IMG/VR virus record: IMGVR_UViG_3300044701_003173
Span: 1-26,795 of that record
Source: a virus
Direction: 5' to 3' (one strand)
Length of the DNA stretch: 26,795 bases
The translations under genes were made by a program, and so were the position numbers. This document shows, one piece after another, positions 2,030 through 17,238 of the stretch (positions within the stretch are counted from its first letter, which is position 1; every line of letters starts with the position of its first letter). A model generated the notes under the pieces. That model did not search any database and was not told the DNA's origin. It saw only the letters and a list, made by a program, of their open reading frames with translations.

Positions 2030-5000
2030 ATGGTCATAAACTTTATCCCAGATGACGCCGTGGCTACGGATCAGACCGATCCGCAGCCAGCAGTGCCTAT
2101 CGACTTTGTTCCCGACAATGACTTCGGTGTCGGATTCCAAGCCGACGAGAGGGATGTTGAGCGCGACAATATTGTTATCCGCACCATCGGCAACATCGGC
2201 AACGCCGCCCAGCGCGGCTACTACCAAAGCCGCCTAGCCACAGAGCTTCAGCAACCGCAACCGGACGCCAATCGCGTCATTGAGTTGCAGCAGGCCATGC
2301 AACAGGTTCCGGCATCGCCTGAGTATATGGCGACGATGAACGATGAGTTGGCGCCGGGAGAAAGCTGGAACGCCTTCGTCAGCAATCCAGTCAGCGTGAT
2401 GGGCGAGATGCTGACCGAGTCTCTTGTGTCCTTCGGAGAGCAAATGATGGACAAGGCGCCGGCTTATGTCGGCATCGGGACAGCAGCAGGAACAGCGGGT
2501 GGCGCTGCTATCGGCGGTGTTGGCTCAATACCGGGTGCCGCAGTCGGGGCGCGCTCGGGGCTGACCGTGGCATCTTTCTCGGCCAGCCGCGCCCTTGAGG
2601 CGAGCGATGGCATCCTTCGCTCCTTGGAAGAAGCAGGAGTGCCAATGAACGACCCGCAAGCATTGTCAGCAGCCCTCAACGATCCAGAGCGCATGCAAGT
2701 GGCACGCGAGTTTGCCGACAAGAAGGCGGTTCCTGTCGCCTTGTTTGATGCGGCCAGCATGCTATTGGGCGGTCGCCTCATGGGGCAGAAACCGCTTAAC
2801 GCACTGCAAAAGATCGGGCGCGGGGGCATTGAGACGGCCGTGCAGGCGTTGATCGGCATGGGCGGCGAGGCTACGGGGCAGCTTAATCAGGACGGTCAGA
2901 TCACCAGCGGCCGGTCTATCATGGCTGAAGGCTTGGGCGAGGTTGCCCCCGGCATGGCGCAGGTTGCCATGGGCACAAGGCTGGAACAGGCCGAGCGCCG
3001 TGGTATGCCCGAGCCGCAGCCGGCACAGGCGGTCGGAGAAATAAACCAAAGCATCGCGCCCAACGCTACCCCCGCTAATCCGGCAGAAGTCAATTTTGTC
3101 CAGCCGACACCAACACCCGTTGACCAGAGCGGGACCATCCCAACGCCGTCTCCCCTGCCCGATCCGCCGGCCTCCGTTAAGCCGCGCACCTTTGAGCAGA
3201 AGGCAATGGAGTCGGACGCCATCACGCCGGCCGCCAAGGAGCAGATTGGTTCTTTCTATGGTGCCTACAGCTTCCCGCAAGCGGTGCAGGCGGCGAAGGA
3301 TTGGGTCAACACCAATGGGCTAGAGGCGGCACAGGCGCGCATGCAGGACTTCAACCGCACCAAGGTTCTCCCCTCGCCCGTGGACATTGCTATCGGTATG
3401 GAAGCAGCCGCAAAGCTCGGAGCCCTCGGCCAGCACGACCAACAGGCCGCGCTTGTCATGGACTTGAGCGAGATCGGCACGGCCGCCGGTCAGGCCATCA
3501 GCATTTATCAGATGCTTCCGCGCATGACGCCAGAAGGCATCACAATTTATGCGCAGAAGCAGATTGCCAAGTATATTGGTGGGCTGCCTGCCGACAGGCA
3601 AAAGCAGATGCTCGCCGATCAAGAGTCAGTGAAAGCGGTGCGCGGACAGCTCGGGACCATGCGGACTGACTTCGCCAACAAGGCTATCGGTGAGACCCCG
3701 TATGGCGGCGAGACGATTAAGGACAGGATCGCACGCCGTATAGGCGACAAGGAGAAATACGAGCCGACCTTCACCGGACTCAGAGACATCTTTGTTAAAG
3801 CCAATAACAAGACAGAGGCCAAGGCGTCAGCGTTTGAATTGCTTCAGCAGAACGGATTGTCGCCCTCAGAATCGGAGTCGCTGTCGCGCCGGATGACCGA
3901 TCAATTTTACTCGTCGCTTGATGCTGGGCGGCGCGAGTTGGCTTCCAGCTTTACGGCTGGAGCAAGCAACAAGCGGATTCTCCAGACATTGCAGCAGCAG
4001 CTTGGAGACGGCGCGATCTCTGACACTGAGTTCGTCGCCAGGCTGTCGCAGTCGAAGAGTATTCCGATACTGACAAATGACGTGGCGAACAGGCTCAAGG
4101 ACTACGCTCGTCAATATCAAGAAACAAGCGACCAAGACATCAAGATGTCTCTTGGTGTTCGGATGCACGAAGAGGTGATGTCGCTTACGCCGGGAGACGT
4201 GCTGCAAAAAACAAGAAGCGTCCAATACTTGACGATGCTTCTTTTCCCCCTGACTTGGATAAAAAACTTTGGCGGTAACACCGTTCAGTGGGTTGCTGGC
4301 GTTGGCCGAGACGCTTCAATCGGGTATGTCGTTGACCCGCTTACCAGCATTGTTCGCGGAGACAACAAGCGGACAACCGCAGGCATTGGCGCATGGCAAC
4401 GAACAGCGGCACTATCCACTCCCGTCCAAGATTTTTACAAAGGATACAAGTGGAACGAGCAACAGACGTATAAGGGAAATATATTGGGCAACACACGCGC
4501 AGGACTGAGCCACCTCCGTGCCCTTTCCAAGCTAACCACGCAAAACAAGTGGGAGCTTAACGATGTTAAGGATGTTGGGCGCCGCATGTTCTCCAACAAA
4601 TACATGCAGATGTTGGAGTCTACGCTGTCCGTTGCTCTTGGGGGTCCCGACAGGGCGTTCTACATGTCCCAATTTCGCGGGACCTTGGCTCAATTAGAGC
4701 AGGCGGCAAAACAGAACGGCGAATGGACCGGACACATTACGCCGGACATGTATGAGACGGCGCAGGCAGAGGCGATGTATTCCATCTACCAAGACCCTAA
4801 CAGGGTAAGCAGCGTGCTTGGCGACATCCGAAGCGCACTAAATCTCCGAAAAGCATACGGCGTTGGAAGTATTGCCATGCCGTTCGTTCAGGTGCCGGGA
4901 TCATTGGCTAAGAAGGGACTGGTTGATTGGTCTCCCATCGGGTTTGTTAAGGCGATTTCTGAGGCCGGCAAGGCGGGGTTGTTCGGCAAGGAGTTTAATC

Positions 5001-6190
5001 AGGCCAAGTTCAACAAGGACTTTACGCAGGCCGCTCTTGGAACCGGGCTGTATTCGCTTGGGTTCTGGCTTACGGGGCTTGGCATTATCACGGCGGCCAG
5101 AGAGGACGATGAAGACCTAGACGCAATGCGCAGGTCAACCGGCCTCGGCTCTTACCGCATAAATGTGACAGCCCTTAACCGGGCGCGGCTTACAGGAAAT
5201 TGGAGAGACAGACAGGAACCGCAAGAGGGAGACACAATCGTCAACTACGATTGGTTACAGCCTGTATCCATAACGCTTGCCGCTGGAGCGGACCTGTTTC
5301 ATCGGAGGACCGAAGCTGGGCGCATGGCCCTGCGCGGCGGGACCGTAGAGAACATGTCTGACGCCGCAATGGCTTTAATGGCAGGAACCAAAACACTGAG
5401 CGACCAGCCAATGTTGAGCGGGCTAGGGTCTCTGATGAGTGCCTACTCCAACAACAAGCAAAACTATGCAGAGGCTATCTACGAGACCGTTTTAGATATG
5501 CCGTCACAATTTGTTCCGCAGGCAGTGCGTAGAGCGGCGCAATGGAAGGACAACCAAGTCAGGGAGACACGCGCCAGAATTGCATACCTAGACAAGCTCG
5601 GGATAACAGATGCCGCAGCGCAGAGGGCGTTTGCCCAAGTTGCCGTTCAGATACCGGGCGTCAGTGAGATGTTCCCGCCTCGCTTTGACATCAAGGGGCA
5701 AGCTGTTGAGAGGTATCAATACAACGGCAATACCTTGGCTAATCTTTTGTTTAACCCGATGACGGTTACAAAGTTCAAAAAGGATCCTGTTCTCACAGAA
5801 ATTCAGCGCCTAGTAGACAATACGGGAGAGGTTTCCGTTGTTCCGAGACAGGCCGGCAGGGCGCTCAAGCTGAACGGAAAAAACTACGAGCTGACCAACG
5901 AGCAGCTTTCGGCATATCAGTTCTATGTCGGCAACCTGACCATGTCTATGTATCAGCGCCGCATGGCGAGCCCGAAGTATGCCAAATTGCCGGACTCGGT
6001 AAAAATAGACATCTTCACAAAAGACCTAAAGGACTTCCATGCCGCGACAAAGTCGGCGGTCCTCGGTGAAGACGTGCGTAACTTAACTCGCCAACAGCGG
6101 TCGCTTCGCTCCCTCCTAATGAAGAGCCCCCTCGGCCAGATGCCGCCCACCGGCATGCCCTTCCAGAGCTACGCGCCGGCCGCCCAATAA
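2030..6190 (+). CDS. Very large putative internal virion / DNA-ejection protein, 1386 aa
   Basis: The largest gene in the window. ATG 2030 lies one base after the preceding TAG and has no Shine-Dalgarno, so it is probably coupled. The first 90 residues are acidic and polar. Residues 140-185 form a Gly/Ala-rich hydrophobic stretch (GIGTAAGTAGGAAIGG). Residues 330-385 are a Pro-rich linker. The rest is long and helical, with hydrophobic segments near 730-760 (LTMLLFPLTWIKNF) and near 1005-1025 (LYSLGFWLTGLGIITA), followed by a conserved-looking NYDWLQPVSITLAAGADL block. Size, membrane-active segments and last position in the late operon match gp16-like ejection proteins or large phage polyvalent proteins. 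I see no transglycosylase or protease motif, so enzymatic activity is not claimed. Confidence 0.8.
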   Translation: MVINFIPDDAVATDQTDPQPAVPIDFVPDNDFGVGFQADERDVERDNIVIRTIGNIGNAAQRGYYQSRLATELQQPQPDANRVIELQQAMQQVPASPEYMATMNDELAPGESWNAFVSNPVSVMGEMLTESLVSFGEQMMDKAPAYVGIGTAAGTAGGAAIGGVGSIPGAAVGARSGLTVASFSASRALEASDGILRSLEEAGVPMNDPQALSAALNDPERMQVAREFADKKAVPVALFDAASMLLGGRLMGQKPLNALQKIGRGGIETAVQALIGMGGEATGQLNQDGQITSGRSIMAEGLGEVAPGMAQVAMGTRLEQAERRGMPEPQPAQAVGEINQSIAPNATPANPAEVNFVQPTPTPVDQSGTIPTPSPLPDPPASVKPRTFEQKAMESDAITPAAKEQIGSFYGAYSFPQAVQAAKDWVNTNGLEAAQARMQDFNRTKVLPSPVDIAIGMEAAAKLGALGQHDQQAALVMDLSEIGTAAGQAISIYQMLPRMTPEGITIYAQKQIAKYIGGLPADRQKQMLADQESVKAVRGQLGTMRTDFANKAIGETPYGGETIKDRIARRIGDKEKYEPTFTGLRDIFVKANNKTEAKASAFELLQQNGLSPSESESLSRRMTDQFYSSLDAGRRELASSFTAGASNKRILQTLQQQLGDGAISDTEFVARLSQSKSIPILTNDVANRLKDYARQYQETSDQDIKMSLGVRMHEEVMSLTPGDVLQKTRSVQYLTMLLFPLTWIKNFGGNTVQWVAGVGRDASIGYVVDPLTSIVRGDNKRTTAGIGAWQRTAALSTPVQDFYKGYKWNEQQTYKGNILGNTRAGLSHLRALSKLTTQNKWELNDVKDVGRRMFSNKYMQMLESTLSVALGGPDRAFYMSQFRGTLAQLEQAAKQNGEWTGHITPDMYETAQAEAMYSIYQDPNRVSSVLGDIRSALNLRKAYGVGSIAMPFVQVPGSLAKKGLVDWSPIGFVKAISEAGKAGLFGKEFNQAKFNKDFTQAALGTGLYSLGFWLTGLGIITAAREDDEDLDAMRRSTGLGSYRINVTALNRARLTGNWRDRQEPQEGDTIVNYDWLQPVSITLAAGADLFHRRTEAGRMALRGGTVENMSDAAMALMAGTKTLSDQPMLSGLGSLMSAYSNNKQNYAEAIYETVLDMPSQFVPQAVRRAAQWKDNQVRETRARIAYLDKLGITDAAAQRAFAQVAVQIPGVSEMFPPRFDIKGQAVERYQYNGNTLANLLFNPMTVTKFKKDPVLTEIQRLVDNTGEVSVVPRQAGRALKLNGKNYELTNEQLSAYQFYVGNLTMSMYQRRMASPKYAKLPDSVKIDIFTKDLKDFHAATKSAVLGEDVRNLTRQQRSLRSLLMKSPLGQMPPTGMPFQSYAPAAQ

Positions 6191-6268: not shown

Positions 6269-6664
6269 TCAGTAGCCGTAATACGAATACGGTGAAGCAA
6301 TCGGACGATACGGAGTGTAAGTCGGGAAGCCGTAATTGACAACCCGCGTGCCGCCGAATGCGTCTTTGGTAATCGTGGTCATCGGGGCGTTGCCCGTGAC
6401 CACAACCGGAGCCGCATTACCGCCGAAGGGTTCGATCACCGGCGTAGGAATAAGGTTGGGCATGGGGCCGATGTCTCCTCCCCTACCGGATGGAGATTGT
6501 GCAAGAGATGGGGCGGGCTTGGGGTTGCCGTCTCCGAAGTAAGGCGTTCCCGGCTTCATCCATTCGCCGTAGATATTTTTGACGTAGCCCTTGCGCTCCA
6601 TCATTTGCGTGCATCCAGCGGCCATCACCAGGGCGGCGGCGGTTATTGTGGTCAGTAGTTTCAT
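6269..6664 (-). CDS. Small secreted lipoprotein coupled to integrase, 131 aa
   Basis: ATG at 6664 overlaps the integrase stop (ATGA). The N-terminus MKLLTTITAAALVMAAGC is a classical lipoprotein signal peptide: Lys2, a hydrophobic stretch, then lipobox MAAGC with Cys18. The mature part is Pro/Gly-rich with a Tyr-rich C-terminus (YTPYRPIASPYSYYGY) and no catalytic motif. An AAGAGAG sequence about 10 bases upstream can act as ribosome-binding site. Because it is transcribed with int, it is likely made in the lysogen or just after infection. That fits a lysogenic-conversion or superinfection-exclusion lipoprotein such as those known in other temperate phages, but that role is inferred from location and signal peptide only. 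Confidence 0.8.
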   Translation of the reverse strand: MKLLTTITAAALVMAAGCTQMMERKGYVKNIYGEWMKPGTPYFGDGNPKPAPSLAQSPSGRGGDIGPMPNLIPTPVIEPFGGNAAPVVVTGNAPMTTITKDAFGGTRVVNYGFPTYTPYRPIASPYSYYGY

Positions 6665-7854
6665 AGTGGTCTCTCTTGAAATACCGCCGGCACGCTCACG
6701 GCCTTCTGCCATGTCGCATACCAGCGGCTTGTTGTGACAGGTGAGGAATGCCCCAAGAGCTTCTGCACCTGTGAAATCTGTCCGGTCGCCTCCAGCCAAT
6801 CGCTGCCGGCTTGCTTGCGTAGCTCGTAGGCGGCGCCGACACGGTCGGGGATATACTTGCGCAGCCAAGTATTGAAGACGCGCAGCATGAAATTGTAGCG
6901 CAGGAACTCGGTGCGCAGCGGGATTAGGTAGTCGTCGGCGGTCATCAGTTCCTCGGCCATCCAGGGCGCCAAGGTAATGTCGCGCTCGCGGGCCCCGCCT
7001 GTCTTTAGGGTGAACTGCTGATCCCGGCGCTCACGGATGCACATGGTTTGTCCGGCGGCGCGGCTCTCGATCCACCCCTTGCGGGCGTAGCTGACCTCCT
7101 TGGGCGTCATCCCAAGGTAGCGGCAGCAGATGAAAGCCCGCCGGATCGTCTGATCCATGCGGCTGTCCTGCTCCATGGCGGCCAGCACGTCCTTGGCGAT
7201 ATGCTGAAAGCTGTTGGGATCGTATTTCTGCTTGGCGTCCTTGCTGGCGCGCTTGAACTCGGTCAGGTCGGGCAGCTTGAAGTCCAGCCATTCGTCGGTC
7301 TTGGCGAAGATAGCCTTAGCCCCAGCCAGCGCGGACCCGATGCTGTAGTCTGCCGTGCCGCACGCCTCCTTGTATTTGCGGACCAAGGCGGCGGTCAATT
7401 CGGTGGACCGGACGGCCATCACCTTCTCCTTCTCGCTGTTGGTTATGGGCGCGGCGCGCTTGGGATCGGAGCGGTGCGGCCGGCGAGGGGCAAGGCCGGT
7501 GGCGCGGCCGACGACCCGCAGGAGGCAACTGGTATTCTTCTCGGCTGAGTCGCATTTGGACTTGGCCAGGTAGTTCTCGATGATCTGGCCGATGGTGGGG
7601 AAGTCATTGCGCAGGCCCTCATGCTTGCGCAGGGTCTCGATGCCCTCCTGCTCCTGCATGGTGATGTAGGCCATGGCCTTCTGTTTCGCCAGCTTGGCGT
7701 CGGTGGTGCGCAGCGTGTGGCGGTGCATCTTCTTGGTGCGCCGGTCGGTGAAGCGCACCCACCAACTGCCAAGGCGCCAATAGACCGAGCCGCGCGCCCC
7801 GACTTTGTCGTTGCGGACCTTGAAGGACTGCTTAATCTCTTGGTTGGCAATCAT
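6661..7854 (-). CDS. int: Tyrosine recombinase (phage integrase), 397 aa
   Basis: Site-specific recombinase expected to integrate the phage at attP. The N-terminal part (residues 20-60) is an arm-binding-like domain rich in aromatic and basic residues; residues 85-200 look like a core-binding domain; the catalytic domain is about 215-385. Visible catalytic positions are Lys284 (LKTGGARERDITL), Arg346 (YELRK), His369 (LLGHSS) and the nucleophile Tyr379 (TTSRWYA). Two canonical residues are not as expected: the first arginine, in the GLRxxE position, is Thr250 (GMTPKE), and the histidine of HxLR is Tyr343. The start is uncertain: ATG 7854 is preferred, while a TTG at 7899 would add 15 residues but has no ribosome-binding site. 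Confidence 0.9.
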   Translation of the reverse strand: MIANQEIKQSFKVRNDKVGARGSVYWRLGSWWVRFTDRRTKKMHRHTLRTTDAKLAKQKAMAYITMQEQEGIETLRKHEGLRNDFPTIGQIIENYLAKSKCDSAEKNTSCLLRVVGRATGLAPRRPHRSDPKRAAPITNSEKEKVMAVRSTELTAALVRKYKEACGTADYSIGSALAGAKAIFAKTDEWLDFKLPDLTEFKRASKDAKQKYDPNSFQHIAKDVLAAMEQDSRMDQTIRRAFICCRYLGMTPKEVSYARKGWIESRAAGQTMCIRERRDQQFTLKTGGARERDITLAPWMAEELMTADDYLIPLRTEFLRYNFMLRVFNTWLRKYIPDRVGAAYELRKQAGSDWLEATGQISQVQKLLGHSSPVTTSRWYATWQKAVSVPAVFQERPL

Positions 7855-7870
7855 AATCCATTGTTTCCAT

Positions 7871-7960
7871 GTGTCAAAAAGTGTCTGATTCTGTGTCAAA
7901 AGTCAAGCGCAAAAGCTCATTAAACGTGGCACAACGTGTTACAAACTTTCAGTGTCCAAA
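7871..7960. promoter_or_regulatory. Putative integrase arm-type repeats beside attP
   Basis: GTGTCAAAA occurs at 7871-7879 and again, exactly 22 bases later, at 7893-7901. A variant GTGTCCAAA lies at 7952-7960, just before the tRNA fragment, and a shorter GTGTC at 7881-7885. Short direct repeats at about two helical turns beside an integrase gene and a core site are typical of arm-type integrase-binding sites. The first two copies overlap the proposed start region of int, so they might instead be an int operator. Confidence 0.45.
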
Positions 7961-13181: not shown

Positions 13182-13622
13182 ATGAAAAAGTCCCTAAAAC
13201 CCTACCACAACAAGCTGAAGGCATTGTTTGCCCAGCACAGTCAATCGCATGTTGAGAGCAGTCAACCCGAGGACGAGCCGATTACAGAGGCGCCTGAGCC
13301 GATTGCTGTTGGCCCTGAGCCGACAGACCCGCCGGCGCACGACGAGAAGGCGTTGACGGAGGAGGTTGCTAGGCAGGTTGGCTGGCAGGTAGGCGATCCG
13401 GCGTCGGGCAAGGTGATGAACCGCCAGATGGTGAACAAGCGCCGTGTGTGGGCGATGGTGACCGGGTGGTCGGAGATGGTGCAGGTGTCGGTTCACGATC
13501 AGTCGGAGTGGCCGGCTGGGTCTACGATTAAGTGTGAGTATGTGCAGGCCAACAGTGACGGCCATCTAGTATTCAATAGCAAAGAACATGGTCCCAAGTG
13601 GAAGCGGAGGGGTTCACGATGA
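13182..13622 (+). CDS. Hypothetical protein, 146 aa
   Basis: ATG 13182 follows an A/C-rich leader without Shine-Dalgarno. The first 20 residues are basic (MKKSLKPYHNKLKALFAQHS). Residues 25-55 are a Glu/Pro-rich linker. The C-terminal 90 residues are a compact, probably beta-rich domain (ARQVGWQVGDPASGKVMNRQ, RRVWAMVTGWSEMVQVSVHD) ending in a basic tail. No recognised family. It overlaps the next gene by ATGA. Confidence 0.65.
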   Translation: MKKSLKPYHNKLKALFAQHSQSHVESSQPEDEPITEAPEPIAVGPEPTDPPAHDEKALTEEVARQVGWQVGDPASGKVMNRQMVNKRRVWAMVTGWSEMVQVSVHDQSEWPAGSTIKCEYVQANSDGHLVFNSKEHGPKWKRRGSR

Positions 13623-13849
13623 GCAAGGCTATTGCTTCTGTATTACTCTGTGGTCTGTATGCTGGTTGTGCTGCGTCTGGCTGGCGCGAGACGGCTCCGC
13701 ACAACACGCCCTATGCTTGGGAGTATAACGCCCCGATAGAGGGCTGGCGGTCTCTGTATGCTGGCTGGAAGCAACTGACGGCACCGGAGGGTATGATCTG
13801 GGATGAGTTGATGGGAAGCTATCAGCAGGACTTGGGGGTGGCACGATGA
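13619..13849 (+). CDS. Putative small lipoprotein or secreted protein, 76 aa
   Basis: ATG 13619 overlaps the previous stop (ATGA). The N-terminus MSKAIASVLLCGLYAGCAAS looks like a lipoprotein signal with Cys17 after LYAG, a slightly non-standard lipobox (Tyr at -3). The mature part is Trp/Tyr-rich (GWRETAPHNTPYAWEYNAPI). No family recognised. Unusual inside a replication operon; an envelope role such as exclusion is possible but not shown. Confidence 0.6.
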   Translation: MSKAIASVLLCGLYAGCAASGWRETAPHNTPYAWEYNAPIEGWRSLYAGWKQLTAPEGMIWDELMGSYQQDLGVAR

Positions 13850-14616
13850 GCGCCGAAGCGACCAACTGGGTCTGGAAGCACAGTGAGGCGTCGGGCTCGG
13901 ATCGCCTGGTGCTCTTGGCCTTGGCGGACTTCTGTAACGAGAAGGCTGAGTGCTATGCGTCGTATGGGACGCTAATGAAGAAGACGCGACTGAGCGAGGC
14001 AACCGTATATCGCGCTCTCAAATCCCTGCAACGAGCTGGCGATTTGGCGCAAGTCGCCCAAGGAGACTTTGGCAAGGGCAGCCAAGATTCCAGCGAGTGG
14101 CGCCTGCCCAAAGTCCACAACTGTCAAATTGACAGTGCATTCAATCTGACAGCTGTGAAACCTCCGACAACTGTCAAATTGACACCTGACAACTGTCAAA
14201 TTGAAGGATCAACAATACATAACAATACAGATAATAATAATAGCTCGCCTACGGCTCGCCCCCAACCGCCCCAGCTAACCGTAATCACAGAATCCAATTC
14301 GCCACCCTCTCTGGATTCAGAAGTAAAGTTGGTCCGCAAACGAGAGGACGTTCTCGGCAAGGGGTTAACCGACGAGCAATGGCTCCGGTGGCTGGGCGAG
14401 AAGAACCCCAACATCGACATCCCGGTCCTCTTCGACCGCTGCCTCGCGTGGTGCAAGGACAAGAGCAAGGTAGCCAGCCGCCGGCAGTTTATGGCCTTCG
14501 TCCGCAACGCCCAAAAGGACGTGCCCATGGCCTTTGTCCGCCGCCCATCGGCACCCTCTGGTCAGTCGGCCTTTGAGCGGGAGCTGGCTGAGATTAGGAT
14601 GGCGGTGGGAGAGTGA
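13846..14616 (+). CDS. Replication initiator (lambda O-like), winged HTH, 256 aa
   Basis: ATG 13846 overlaps the previous stop (ATGA). Residues 1-75 match the HTH_36-type N-terminal domain of phage initiators: NWVWKHSEASGSDRLVLLAL, CYASYGTLMKKTRLSEATVY, then RALKSLQRAGDLAQV. Residues 90-145 are a polar linker, and the DNA encoding it contains three iterons and an AT-rich tract. Residues 165-256 form a C-terminal helical domain (LTDEQWLRWLGEKNPNIDIP) where helicase-loading contacts usually lie. The architecture, with the origin inside the initiator gene and DnaB downstream, is that of lambda O. No separate helicase loader is recognised. Confidence 0.75.
   Translation: MSAEATNWVWKHSEASGSDRLVLLALADFCNEKAECYASYGTLMKKTRLSEATVYRALKSLQRAGDLAQVAQGDFGKGSQDSSEWRLPKVHNCQIDSAFNLTAVKPPTTVKLTPDNCQIEGSTIHNNTDNNNSSPTARPQPPQLTVITESNSPPSLDSEVKLVRKREDVLGKGLTDEQWLRWLGEKNPNIDIPVLFDRCLAWCKDKSKVASRRQFMAFVRNAQKDVPMAFVRRPSAPSGQSAFERELAEIRMAVGE
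14117..14244 (+). other. Putative replication origin inside the initiator gene
   Basis: CAACTGTCAAATTGA occurs three times, at 14118-14132, 14168-14182 and 14190-14204. The core TGTCAAATTGACA is a perfect palindrome in the first two copies; the third is a half-degenerate copy. A weaker related block (CTGACAGCTGT) lies at about 14146-14156. Directly downstream, 14208-14242 is AT-rich (ACAATACATAACAATACAG, then ATAATAATAATAG), the likely duplex-unwinding element. Iterons plus an AT-rich tract in the initiator linker is the arrangement of lambdoid origins. Confidence 0.7.
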
Positions 14617-15029
14617 CCGTCTTGGCCTCAACGGACAAGGGCGCTCACGCCGAGCTGCTGTTTTGCGCCGAGGCTGGCGCTCGGGGCTACAGCATATTCA
14701 CGCCGCTGGTGGGAAGCCCCAAGGCAGACGTTTGCCTCAAGATGGGTCAGGGTCCCTACGTTGGCATTCAGGTCAAGCGGGCTTGCGTCAGCACGCAGCG
14801 CGCCGGCCTTTACAAAATCAACACGTCGAGCCGAACGGCTGGGCGCTACAGCGCCGGCGACTTTGACGTATTGGCGGCCTATCTGCCGGACATCAACGAG
14901 TTTGTTTTCTGGCGGATAAGCGAGATCGCTCAATACAGCCAGATTAGCTACTCGCCGGAAAGGCACCGCAGCCCCGACAACTGGGAACTGCTCGACGCCC
15001 TCGCAGAACCCTCAACCGCGAACCGATAA
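14613..15029 (+). CDS. PD-(D/E)XK endonuclease-like protein, 138 aa
   Basis: GTG 14613 overlaps the previous stop (GTGA). The layout fits the PDDEXK_5 / Holliday-junction-resolvase-like group: DKGAHAELLFCAEAGARGY with Glu14, PLVGSPKADVCLKM with Asp39, and YVGIQVKRA with the Q-V-K motif ending at Lys55. The conserved-looking GLYKINTS and GDFDVLAAYLPD follow. Members are small metal-dependent nucleases of phages and mobile elements. Its substrate here is unknown; recombination or branch resolution during replication is plausible. Confidence 0.7.
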   Translation: MTVLASTDKGAHAELLFCAEAGARGYSIFTPLVGSPKADVCLKMGQGPYVGIQVKRACVSTQRAGLYKINTSSRTAGRYSAGDFDVLAAYLPDINEFVFWRISEIAQYSQISYSPERHRSPDNWELLDALAEPSTANR

Positions 15030-15739: not shown

Positions 15740-15844
15740 ATGGATATCTCAGAACTCACCATGTTTGCCCTCTTGTTCGGCGCGCTGGTTTTCGTCGTGG
15801 CGCTCATCAACGACGATGATGATGACGAGGGGAGGTTTTCGTGA
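15740..15844 (+). CDS. 34-aa membrane peptide before dnaB
   Basis: ATG 15740 to TGA 15842-15844, overlapping the GTG of dnaB (GTGA). Sequence: MDISELTMFALLFGALVFVV then ALINDDDDDEGRFS, one transmembrane helix and a cytoplasm-type acidic tail. It is first behind the promoter at 15697. The AGGGGAGG ribosome-binding site for dnaB lies inside its last codons. Function unknown. Confidence 0.6.
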   Translation: MDISELTMFALLFGALVFVVALINDDDDDEGRFS

Positions 15845-17238
15845 AAAACAAAAACGTCATTCCCCACGATGCGACCGCCGAGTCCTATGTCATAGGATCG
15901 CTCATGTTGCACTCGGATTTGATTGACGAGTGGGACGAGCTGAACGCCGAATACTTTTTCCTCCCCTCGCACCAAGCCGTCTTGGCGTGCATCGTCGCCA
16001 TCCGCGCCAGCGGGGGATCGCCGGACTTGCTCACCGTCACGCAGCGCCTCAACGAGCGCGGCGAGCTGGAAGGCATCGGCGGTCCCGGTGTGCTGACCGA
16101 GATGTATAGCCATGGCGGTGGCCGCGACCTTTCGTATCACATCCAGATTCTACGCGGCTACATGGCCCGCCGCCGCATCCTGGATGCCGCCGGCCGCATG
16201 ATGACCGCCGCCAAAGATCCCGCCATTGACATTGAGGAAGCCTTGGCCGACGCCGGCGAAGCCATCCTTGGCGTGGACATGAGCGGCAAGCGCGACTCGG
16301 CCGCCGCCGCCAGCGAGATGATCCACGGCGTCATCGTCGAGATGGAGCGCGCCATCGTGGAGAAGGGCAAGCCGCGCGGCATCCCGACCGGCTACCGCGA
16401 CTTTGATTACATGACCGGCGGCCTGCGTGGCGGCCAGTTGATGCTGGTCGCCGGCCGTCCCGCCATGGGCAAGAGCGCCATGCTGCTTAACTTGGCCGAC
16501 CGCATGGCCGCCAAGGGAACTACGGTCCTGCTCTACAGCCTGGAGATGAAACGCTTTGACCTCATGCAGCGCATCATCTGTGCCCGCGCCAAGGTCAGCA
16601 GCACCCGCCTGCGTAACGGTGCCGTAGGCAAGGACGAGATGCGCCGCCTCTCCATGGAAAGCATGAACTTGGCCGGCCAACCGCTTTACATAGACGACAG
16701 CGAGGCCCCGACGATCCACGAACTGCGCGCCCGCGCTCGCCGGGAAGTGCGCAAGCACGGCATCAAGGTCATCATGGTGGACTACCTTGGCCTTATCCGC
16801 GTGGCCGGCGCCACGATCAAGAGCCGCGAGAACGAAATAGGCATGGTCAGCAGAGGCTTGAAGGCCATGGCCATGGAGTTGGACATTCCGGTCATCGCCG
16901 CCGCGCAGCTTAACCGCCAGGTCGAAGGGCGCACCGACAGCCGCCCGAAGCTCTCCGACCTGCGCGACAGCGGCAGTCTGGAGCAAGACGCCGACATCGT
17001 GACCACGATTTACCGTGGCGCCTATTACGACAACGCAGAAGGCGGCGTCGAGCCGCAGGACGCCGAGTGGACCCTAGCCAAGCACCGCGAGGGCAAGACC
17101 GGCACGATGCACATGGTCTGGCATCCCGAGTGGACCCGCTTTGACACGGCGCAGATTACGCGCCTGACCGATGAAGCCCCCGTGCAGGAGGCCCGCCAGC
17201 CGGACCTGCATGAGATCAACGCCCTGCTCAATGAATAG
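15841..17238 (+). CDS. dnaB: Replicative DNA helicase, DnaB family, 465 aa
   Basis: Hexameric 5'-3' helicase that unwinds the phage replication fork. The start is GTG 15841 with GGGGAGG upstream and GTGA coupling. The N-terminal domain (residues 8-100) has the DnaB_N pattern (DATAESYVIGSLMLHSDLID), then a linker helix, then the RecA-like C-terminal domain. Walker A is GRPAMGKSA (205-213), the SLEM catalytic glutamate is Glu235, Walker B is IMVDYL (311-316), and motif H4 is DLRDSGSLEQDAD. Length is normal. It is expected to be loaded by the upstream initiator at its internal origin. No primase domain is fused and no polymerase follows, so host enzymes would complete the fork. Confidence 0.95.
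   Translation: MKNKNVIPHDATAESYVIGSLMLHSDLIDEWDELNAEYFFLPSHQAVLACIVAIRASGGSPDLLTVTQRLNERGELEGIGGPGVLTEMYSHGGGRDLSYHIQILRGYMARRRILDAAGRMMTAAKDPAIDIEEALADAGEAILGVDMSGKRDSAAAASEMIHGVIVEMERAIVEKGKPRGIPTGYRDFDYMTGGLRGGQLMLVAGRPAMGKSAMLLNLADRMAAKGTTVLLYSLEMKRFDLMQRIICARAKVSSTRLRNGAVGKDEMRRLSMESMNLAGQPLYIDDSEAPTIHELRARARREVRKHGIKVIMVDYLGLIRVAGATIKSRENEIGMVSRGLKAMAMELDIPVIAAAQLNRQVEGRTDSRPKLSDLRDSGSLEQDADIVTTIYRGAYYDNAEGGVEPQDAEWTLAKHREGKTGTMHMVWHPEWTRFDTAQITRLTDEAPVQEARQPDLHEINALLNE

Follow-up and report, generated by a model that had tools for sequence, protein, structure and literature searches.

The DNA analysed here, a 26.8-kb linear IMG/VR contig that is incomplete and whose entire 26,795 nucleotides we call the window, very probably contains the origin from which the phage replicates, located inside the gene for the very initiator that acts on it; the initiator would bind the iterons in that gene, the adjoining AT-rich tract would melt and the phage's DnaB helicase would be recruited. 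What can be read in the sequence is an array of iterons, selection on it at the DNA level, its phasing, a set of octamers next to it, co-variation of the iterons with the protein, and exchange of a cassette between relatives. Binding, melting and helicase loading are proposed on the model of lambda (PMC7466680, PMC4488673), of SPP1 (PMC6316719) and of the Rep proteins of plasmids (PMC4081077). The features concerned are the following.

13846–14616, plus strand: initiator gene, 256 aa, HTH_36 winged-helix family (Pfam and PHROG profile matches)
13846–14121, plus strand: N-terminal winged helix-turn-helix, residues 1–92 (AlphaFold, confident over residues 1–70)
13953–14207, plus strand: exchanged cassette of recognition helix, wing and all iterons (window/L029 comparison)
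13996–14037, plus strand: recognition helix, residues 51–64, EATVYRALKSLQRA (AlphaFold and co-variation)
14119–14137, no strand assigned: iteron 1, palindrome, centre 14128 (repeat scan and motif search)
14136–14154, no strand assigned: iteron 2, degenerate, centre 14145, 17 bp past iteron 1
14169–14187, no strand assigned: iteron 3, centre 14178 (repeat scan and motif search)
14191–14209, no strand assigned: iteron 4, centre 14200, 22 bp past iteron 3, adjoining the AT-rich tract
14211–14218, plus strand: DUE octamer 1, AACAATAC, starting 11 bp past the centre of iteron 4
14221–14228, plus strand: DUE octamer 2, AACAATAC, 10 nt after octamer 1
14229–14243, plus strand: remainder of the AT-rich tract, AGATAATAATAATAG, putative melting region
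14362–14613, plus strand: helical C-terminal domain, residues 173–256 (AlphaFold)
15841–17238, plus strand: DnaB-type replicative helicase (PF03796, E 2e-88)

We scanned the window sequence for repeats and found three exact copies of CAACTGTCAAATTGA, at 14118–14132, 14168–14182 and 14190–14204, where the original prediction had placed them. With up to three mismatches allowed there were six matches against 0.49 expected, a number reached in none of 100 shuffles. One of the six, at 14141–14155, is a degenerate inverted copy, and we therefore count four iterons in the array; the three repeats reported earlier are the exact copies, and that description did not include the fourth iteron or the two AAC octamers, which start at 14211 and 14221. 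A better-preserved iteron occupies the position of iteron 2 in loci L029–L031. The palindromic core TGTCAAATTGACA attributed to the repeat is entire in the copies at 14118 and 14168, whereas the last copy (14190) has a degraded right arm (TTGAAGG). The 19-mer centres listed above come from a palindromic motif finder with a scoring of our own devising and parameters set by hand; it was used in place of a first 16-mer repeat score, which was too blunt for degenerate iterons. The iterons of the window are spaced 17, 33 and 22 bp from start to start, and the geometry across the family is iterons approximately 17 and then 22 bp apart, followed by octamers starting with AAC. In a tblastn search of annotated phages with the window protein there was one distant match only, and there too the iterons are 22 bp apart.

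As predicted, the repeats lie between the DNA-binding and C-terminal domains, within a linker (residues 93–172) that AlphaFold models as disordered (pLDDT below 50). Disordered linkers tolerate repeats, and the array could be a by-product of a low-complexity linker peptide or of a recent tandem duplication, devoid of any function as DNA. The iteron copies, however, fall in two reading frames and encode different peptides, HNCQID and TTVKLT as noted before and DNCQIE in addition. We then compared palindromes in the linker with those in synonymous shuffles of the same ORF. The window scored 30.3 and its shuffles at most 19.1, which bears out the original statement that the protein sequence does not explain the repeat. 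Homologous initiators collected from viral contigs and bacterial genomes were reduced to 69 distinct ORFs, although the effective number is lower because many of these are close relatives; linker palindromes exceeded all 100 synonymous shuffles in 58 of the 69, and in 67 no more than five of the 100 shuffles reached the observed score. These controls indicate that the iterons are selected beyond the protein sequence and are no coding by-product. Together with the co-variation of half-sites and recognition helix described below, they largely refute an origin of the repeats in the linker peptide or in duplication, which we regard as very improbable.

The protein encoded around the array matches PF13730 (HTH_36, E 3e-11), phrog_1032 (E 1e-18) and phrog_391 (E 5e-15), the PHROG labels being 'replication initiation protein' and 'replication initiation O-like', and it thus belongs to the HTH_36 phage initiators (PHROG 1032/391/270 group). 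AlphaFold gave a mean pLDDT of 82–92 per ten residues over residues 1–70 of the winged helix-turn-helix domain and placed helices at residues 176–186, 192–206, 212–225 and 242–254 of the C-terminal domain, the proposed helicase-recruiting part of the protein. Downstream lie dnaB (15841–17238), on the side where the original prediction had it, a RusA-like resolvase and an exonuclease. The gene directly after the initiator, in the position that the P-type helicase loader has in lambda, overlaps the end of the initiator gene and encodes a small PD-(D/E)XK endonuclease-like protein (14613–15029); a gene with a similar start also follows the initiator of locus L019.

Most winged helix-turn-helix proteins that have palindromic sites act as regulators, and the palindromes might instead be operators for this gene or for dnaB, used by a regulator or by a self-repressing initiator and unconnected with any origin. 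Among solved structures, those closest in sequence and fold are for the most part regulators, albeit with weak matches, and a Foldseek search of the PDB returned winged helices only, at weak E-values, the initiator structures 4pt7 and 5kbj among them. Several features nevertheless speak against operators. The sites lie 270–360 nt inside the coding region, away from any promoter, and border on an AT-rich tract whose phased octamers begin at a set distance from them; the PHROG assignment is to replication initiation, with dnaB downstream; and arrays of mostly three to seven sites with 17/22-bp phasing suit an initiator better. We consider operator function improbable and interpret the array as the binding sites of a replication initiator.

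We asked whether the sequence of the iterons follows that of the protein. The half-site is CTGTCAA in the window, TTGGTCAA in L029–L031 and TGTGCTCAA in L033; three further clades have GGTCTCA, GGTGCA and GGTCTAA, and there are others besides. In one collection of initiators (set A), half-site similarity correlated with recognition-helix similarity after removal of the rest of the domain (partial Mantel r 0.479, 0 of 2,000 permutations), and the reverse control gave r 0.116. An independent collection found by a different route (set B) gave a partial r of 0.346 (0 of 1,000 permutations), and the pooled sets, with 80 distinct pairs, a partial r of 0.372 (0 of 1,000 permutations), all from permutation tests that allow for phylogeny in part only, with many of the ORFs closely related. 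In the pooled set, iteron sequence is associated most strongly with the alignment column of residue 52 (A52 in the window), which belongs to the first helical turn of the recognition helix. When this residue is arginine, a TCA half-site occurs in none of 44 cases, compared with 17 of 32 otherwise, in figures uncorrected for ancestry. These correlations suggest that the recognition helix sets the half-site of its own iterons.

Comparison of close relatives points to the same coupling in another way. The window and L029 are 92–100% identical over nucleotides 1–120 of the gene and again from nucleotide 361 to approximately 1,560, and mostly 92–100% identical over the 600 nt upstream of the gene (one step at 78%), whereas in 60-nt steps across nucleotides 121–360 identity falls to 52–75%. 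Near-identity except in one block of approximately 250 nt means that the DNA-reading part and the iterons were exchanged together. Another clade provides a second case, with L043 and L078 being 98–100% identical to the left of the gene, 51–73% in the block and 87–100% to the right. We conclude from these alignments that the reader module and its target repeats are swapped as one cassette in both pairs. Origin specificity would thus be replaceable within an otherwise unchanged gene, which bears on replication competition among related phages or their satellites. Since each gene holds both the DNA-reading helix and its target, sequence alone yields matched protein–site pairs (the 80 distinct ones above), and a recognition code for the HTH_36 winged-helix family becomes testable, with residue 52 first.

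The AT-rich tract that the original prediction had placed immediately after the repeats has the highest AT content (80%) of any 45-nt stretch in the gene and begins within the final 19-mer, 12 nt from its end; its AT content exceeds what synonymous codon choice gives (reached in 0 of 200 shuffles). Within it, AAC occurs at +11 from the centre of the last iteron (14211) and again at 14221, which fits a phased layout found across the family. Among ORFs with clear iterons, which represent 31 distinct recognition helices, the first AAC lies 11–12 bp past the last iteron centre in 27, as against a mean of 7.8 and a maximum of 15 in 500 sets of synonymous shuffles, and a second AAC follows 10–11 nt later in 25 (at most 8 in shuffles). 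The octamer takes the form AACCRYCA in distant relatives and AACAATAC or AACAATAA in the window and its near relatives. The window has no exact AACCRYCA, and AACAATAC is similar to it chiefly in where it lies and in beginning with AAC.

We next scanned viral contigs for three AACCRYCA octamers alone and obtained at least 120 stretches. Of 80 loci among the matches listed, 68 carry an initiator-family ORF over the octamer match; with a complement pattern as the control, the figure was 1 of 36. The octamers occur in all three reading frames on many unrelated contigs (L155–L234), and the linker peptide TIKEPSxNHQ recurs because phased AACCRYCA octamers encode it. In this set the first octamer is mostly preceded by iteron centres at distances of 11, 33 and 55 bp, and further out the spacing is 16–18 bp; those of the window lie at −11, −33, −66 and −83. 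The array is also present in the annotated Bordetella phage PHB09, Pseudomonas phage JBD68 and Stenotrophomonas phage CUB19. No such array occurs in lambda, Shigella phage SfII, Enterobacteria phage mEp021, Rhizobium phage PPF1 or Erwinia phage Pavtok, which means that it is not universal even among related initiators.

It is possible, if somewhat doubtful, that the origin is as we describe it and the octamers are unspecific, mere marks of a low-stability tract left by codon or composition bias. The tract is AT-rich, the exact octamer varies by clade (AACAATAC, AACAATAA or AACCRYCA), and the AT-rich tract of lambda does without octamers. On the other hand, AACCRYCA is richer in GC than a simple melting tract needs, it recurs in three frames on many unrelated contigs, and its exact offset and period are kept. 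With the octamers constant while the iterons vary, their reader should be independent of the variable recognition helix, and their occurrence almost exclusively with the HTH_36 initiator family suggests that the initiator itself reads them. A shared partner extending beyond HTH_36 proteins may be the reader instead. The hint for this is L179, in which an octamer array (6925–6954, minus strand) lies in an ORF that resembles an initiator but has another N-terminal domain (YVKLWRKSLDSGLL...), a difference judged from the translation alone. In an assessment that we hold evenly balanced, the AAC octamers (AACCRYCA or the AACAATA form) set 11 bp from the last iteron could be an origin element general to tailed phages and as yet without a name, which a conserved HTH_36 surface or a conserved partner would recognize in single-stranded form, beside a diversifying and swapped cassette of iterons and recognition helix. 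The octamer array is a concrete candidate for what the melting element encodes, and its fixed form offers a simple search pattern for such origins in unannotated phage DNA. Our search of the open-access literature, with subscription papers outside its reach, found neither the octamer array nor its phasing nor the cassette exchange described for this family, and a search for the octamer letters returned chance occurrences only.

Taken with what is known of other initiators, these observations suggest the following sequence of events. The initiator, as a dimer, would use its N-terminal winged helix-turn-helix to contact the palindromic iterons, with the iteron nearest the tract one helical turn (11 bp) from the first AAC octamer and the octamers 10–11 nt apart. 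The phased array would bend and melt the adjoining AT-rich tract, and either the initiator or a partner would bind the octamers in a sequence-specific way, most likely on one single strand, which would give a polar platform. The C-terminal domain would then recruit the phage's own DnaB.

Origins inside initiator genes are already known from a few model phages, being long established for lambda, reported for SPP1 and predicted for KIRK, with experiments behind the lambda and SPP1 cases. The lambda origin lies inside gene O, and the N-terminal half of O binds the iterons, on which multiple copies assemble (PMC7466680, PMC4488673). The window shares with it the lambda-type organization of four iterons placed centrally in the coding region of the initiator and an AT-rich region adjoining the last one. 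It differs in iteron spacing (20, 24 and 23 bp from start to start in lambda), in having an AAC octamer array and in encoding its own DnaB. The protein families differ as well: lambda O is a Phage_rep_O protein (PF04492, E 6e-36; TIGR01610, E 5e-39), whereas the HTH_36 protein of the window matched neither profile up to E 0.01. The original description of a lambda-type origin thus holds for the working principle, as judged by DNA-level selection, co-variation and the cassette swap, but not for the spacing or the DUE, and the initiator has an 'O-like' PHROG label but differs from lambda O in Pfam/NCBIfam family.

In Bacillus phage SPP1, gp38 (G38P) binds direct repeats in its own gene 38 (oriL) beside an AT-rich DUE (PMC6316719). 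SPP1 thereby resembles the window in having repeats inside the initiator gene and its own DnaB-type helicase, with gp38 compared by description, but loading there falls to a separate protein, gp39, and oriR serves as a second origin. The Rep protein of iteron plasmids binds one DUE strand sequence-specifically (PMC4081077), and we borrowed this model for the proposed role of the octamers. RK2 oriV/TrfA and F/RepE likewise have iterons beside a DUE of short repeats; in contrast to the window, the plasmid Reps each contain a pair of winged-helix domains, and four 13-mers make up the oriV DUE. For ORF43 of Francisella phage KIRK, a replication protein with a match to a TubR-like fold, a lambda-like origin has been predicted (PMC7924643); compared by description, its iterons lie inside the AT-rich region, unlike those of the window.

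Finally, we examined GC skew. The original prediction had looked for a minimum at the origin, but the cumulative curve has its maximum at 13999, beside the iterons, and its minimum at the end of the incomplete record; near-complete relatives gave a weak and mixed signal. GC skew thus lends the proposed origin no support. We gave it little weight because the record is incomplete and has genes on both strands. Third-codon GC skew in same-strand genes is approximately +0.4 at 13182–13849, approximately −0.05 in the initiator gene and mostly −0.2 to −0.4 rightward, and its sign across 13182–14616 is opposite to the usual leading-strand bias. Elsewhere in the window, 2030–6190 encodes a 1,386-residue protein, possibly a virion protein, that matched no PHROG. 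The phage is probably temperate because of an integrase-like gene at 6661–7899 on the minus strand (phrog_1, E 8e-14).
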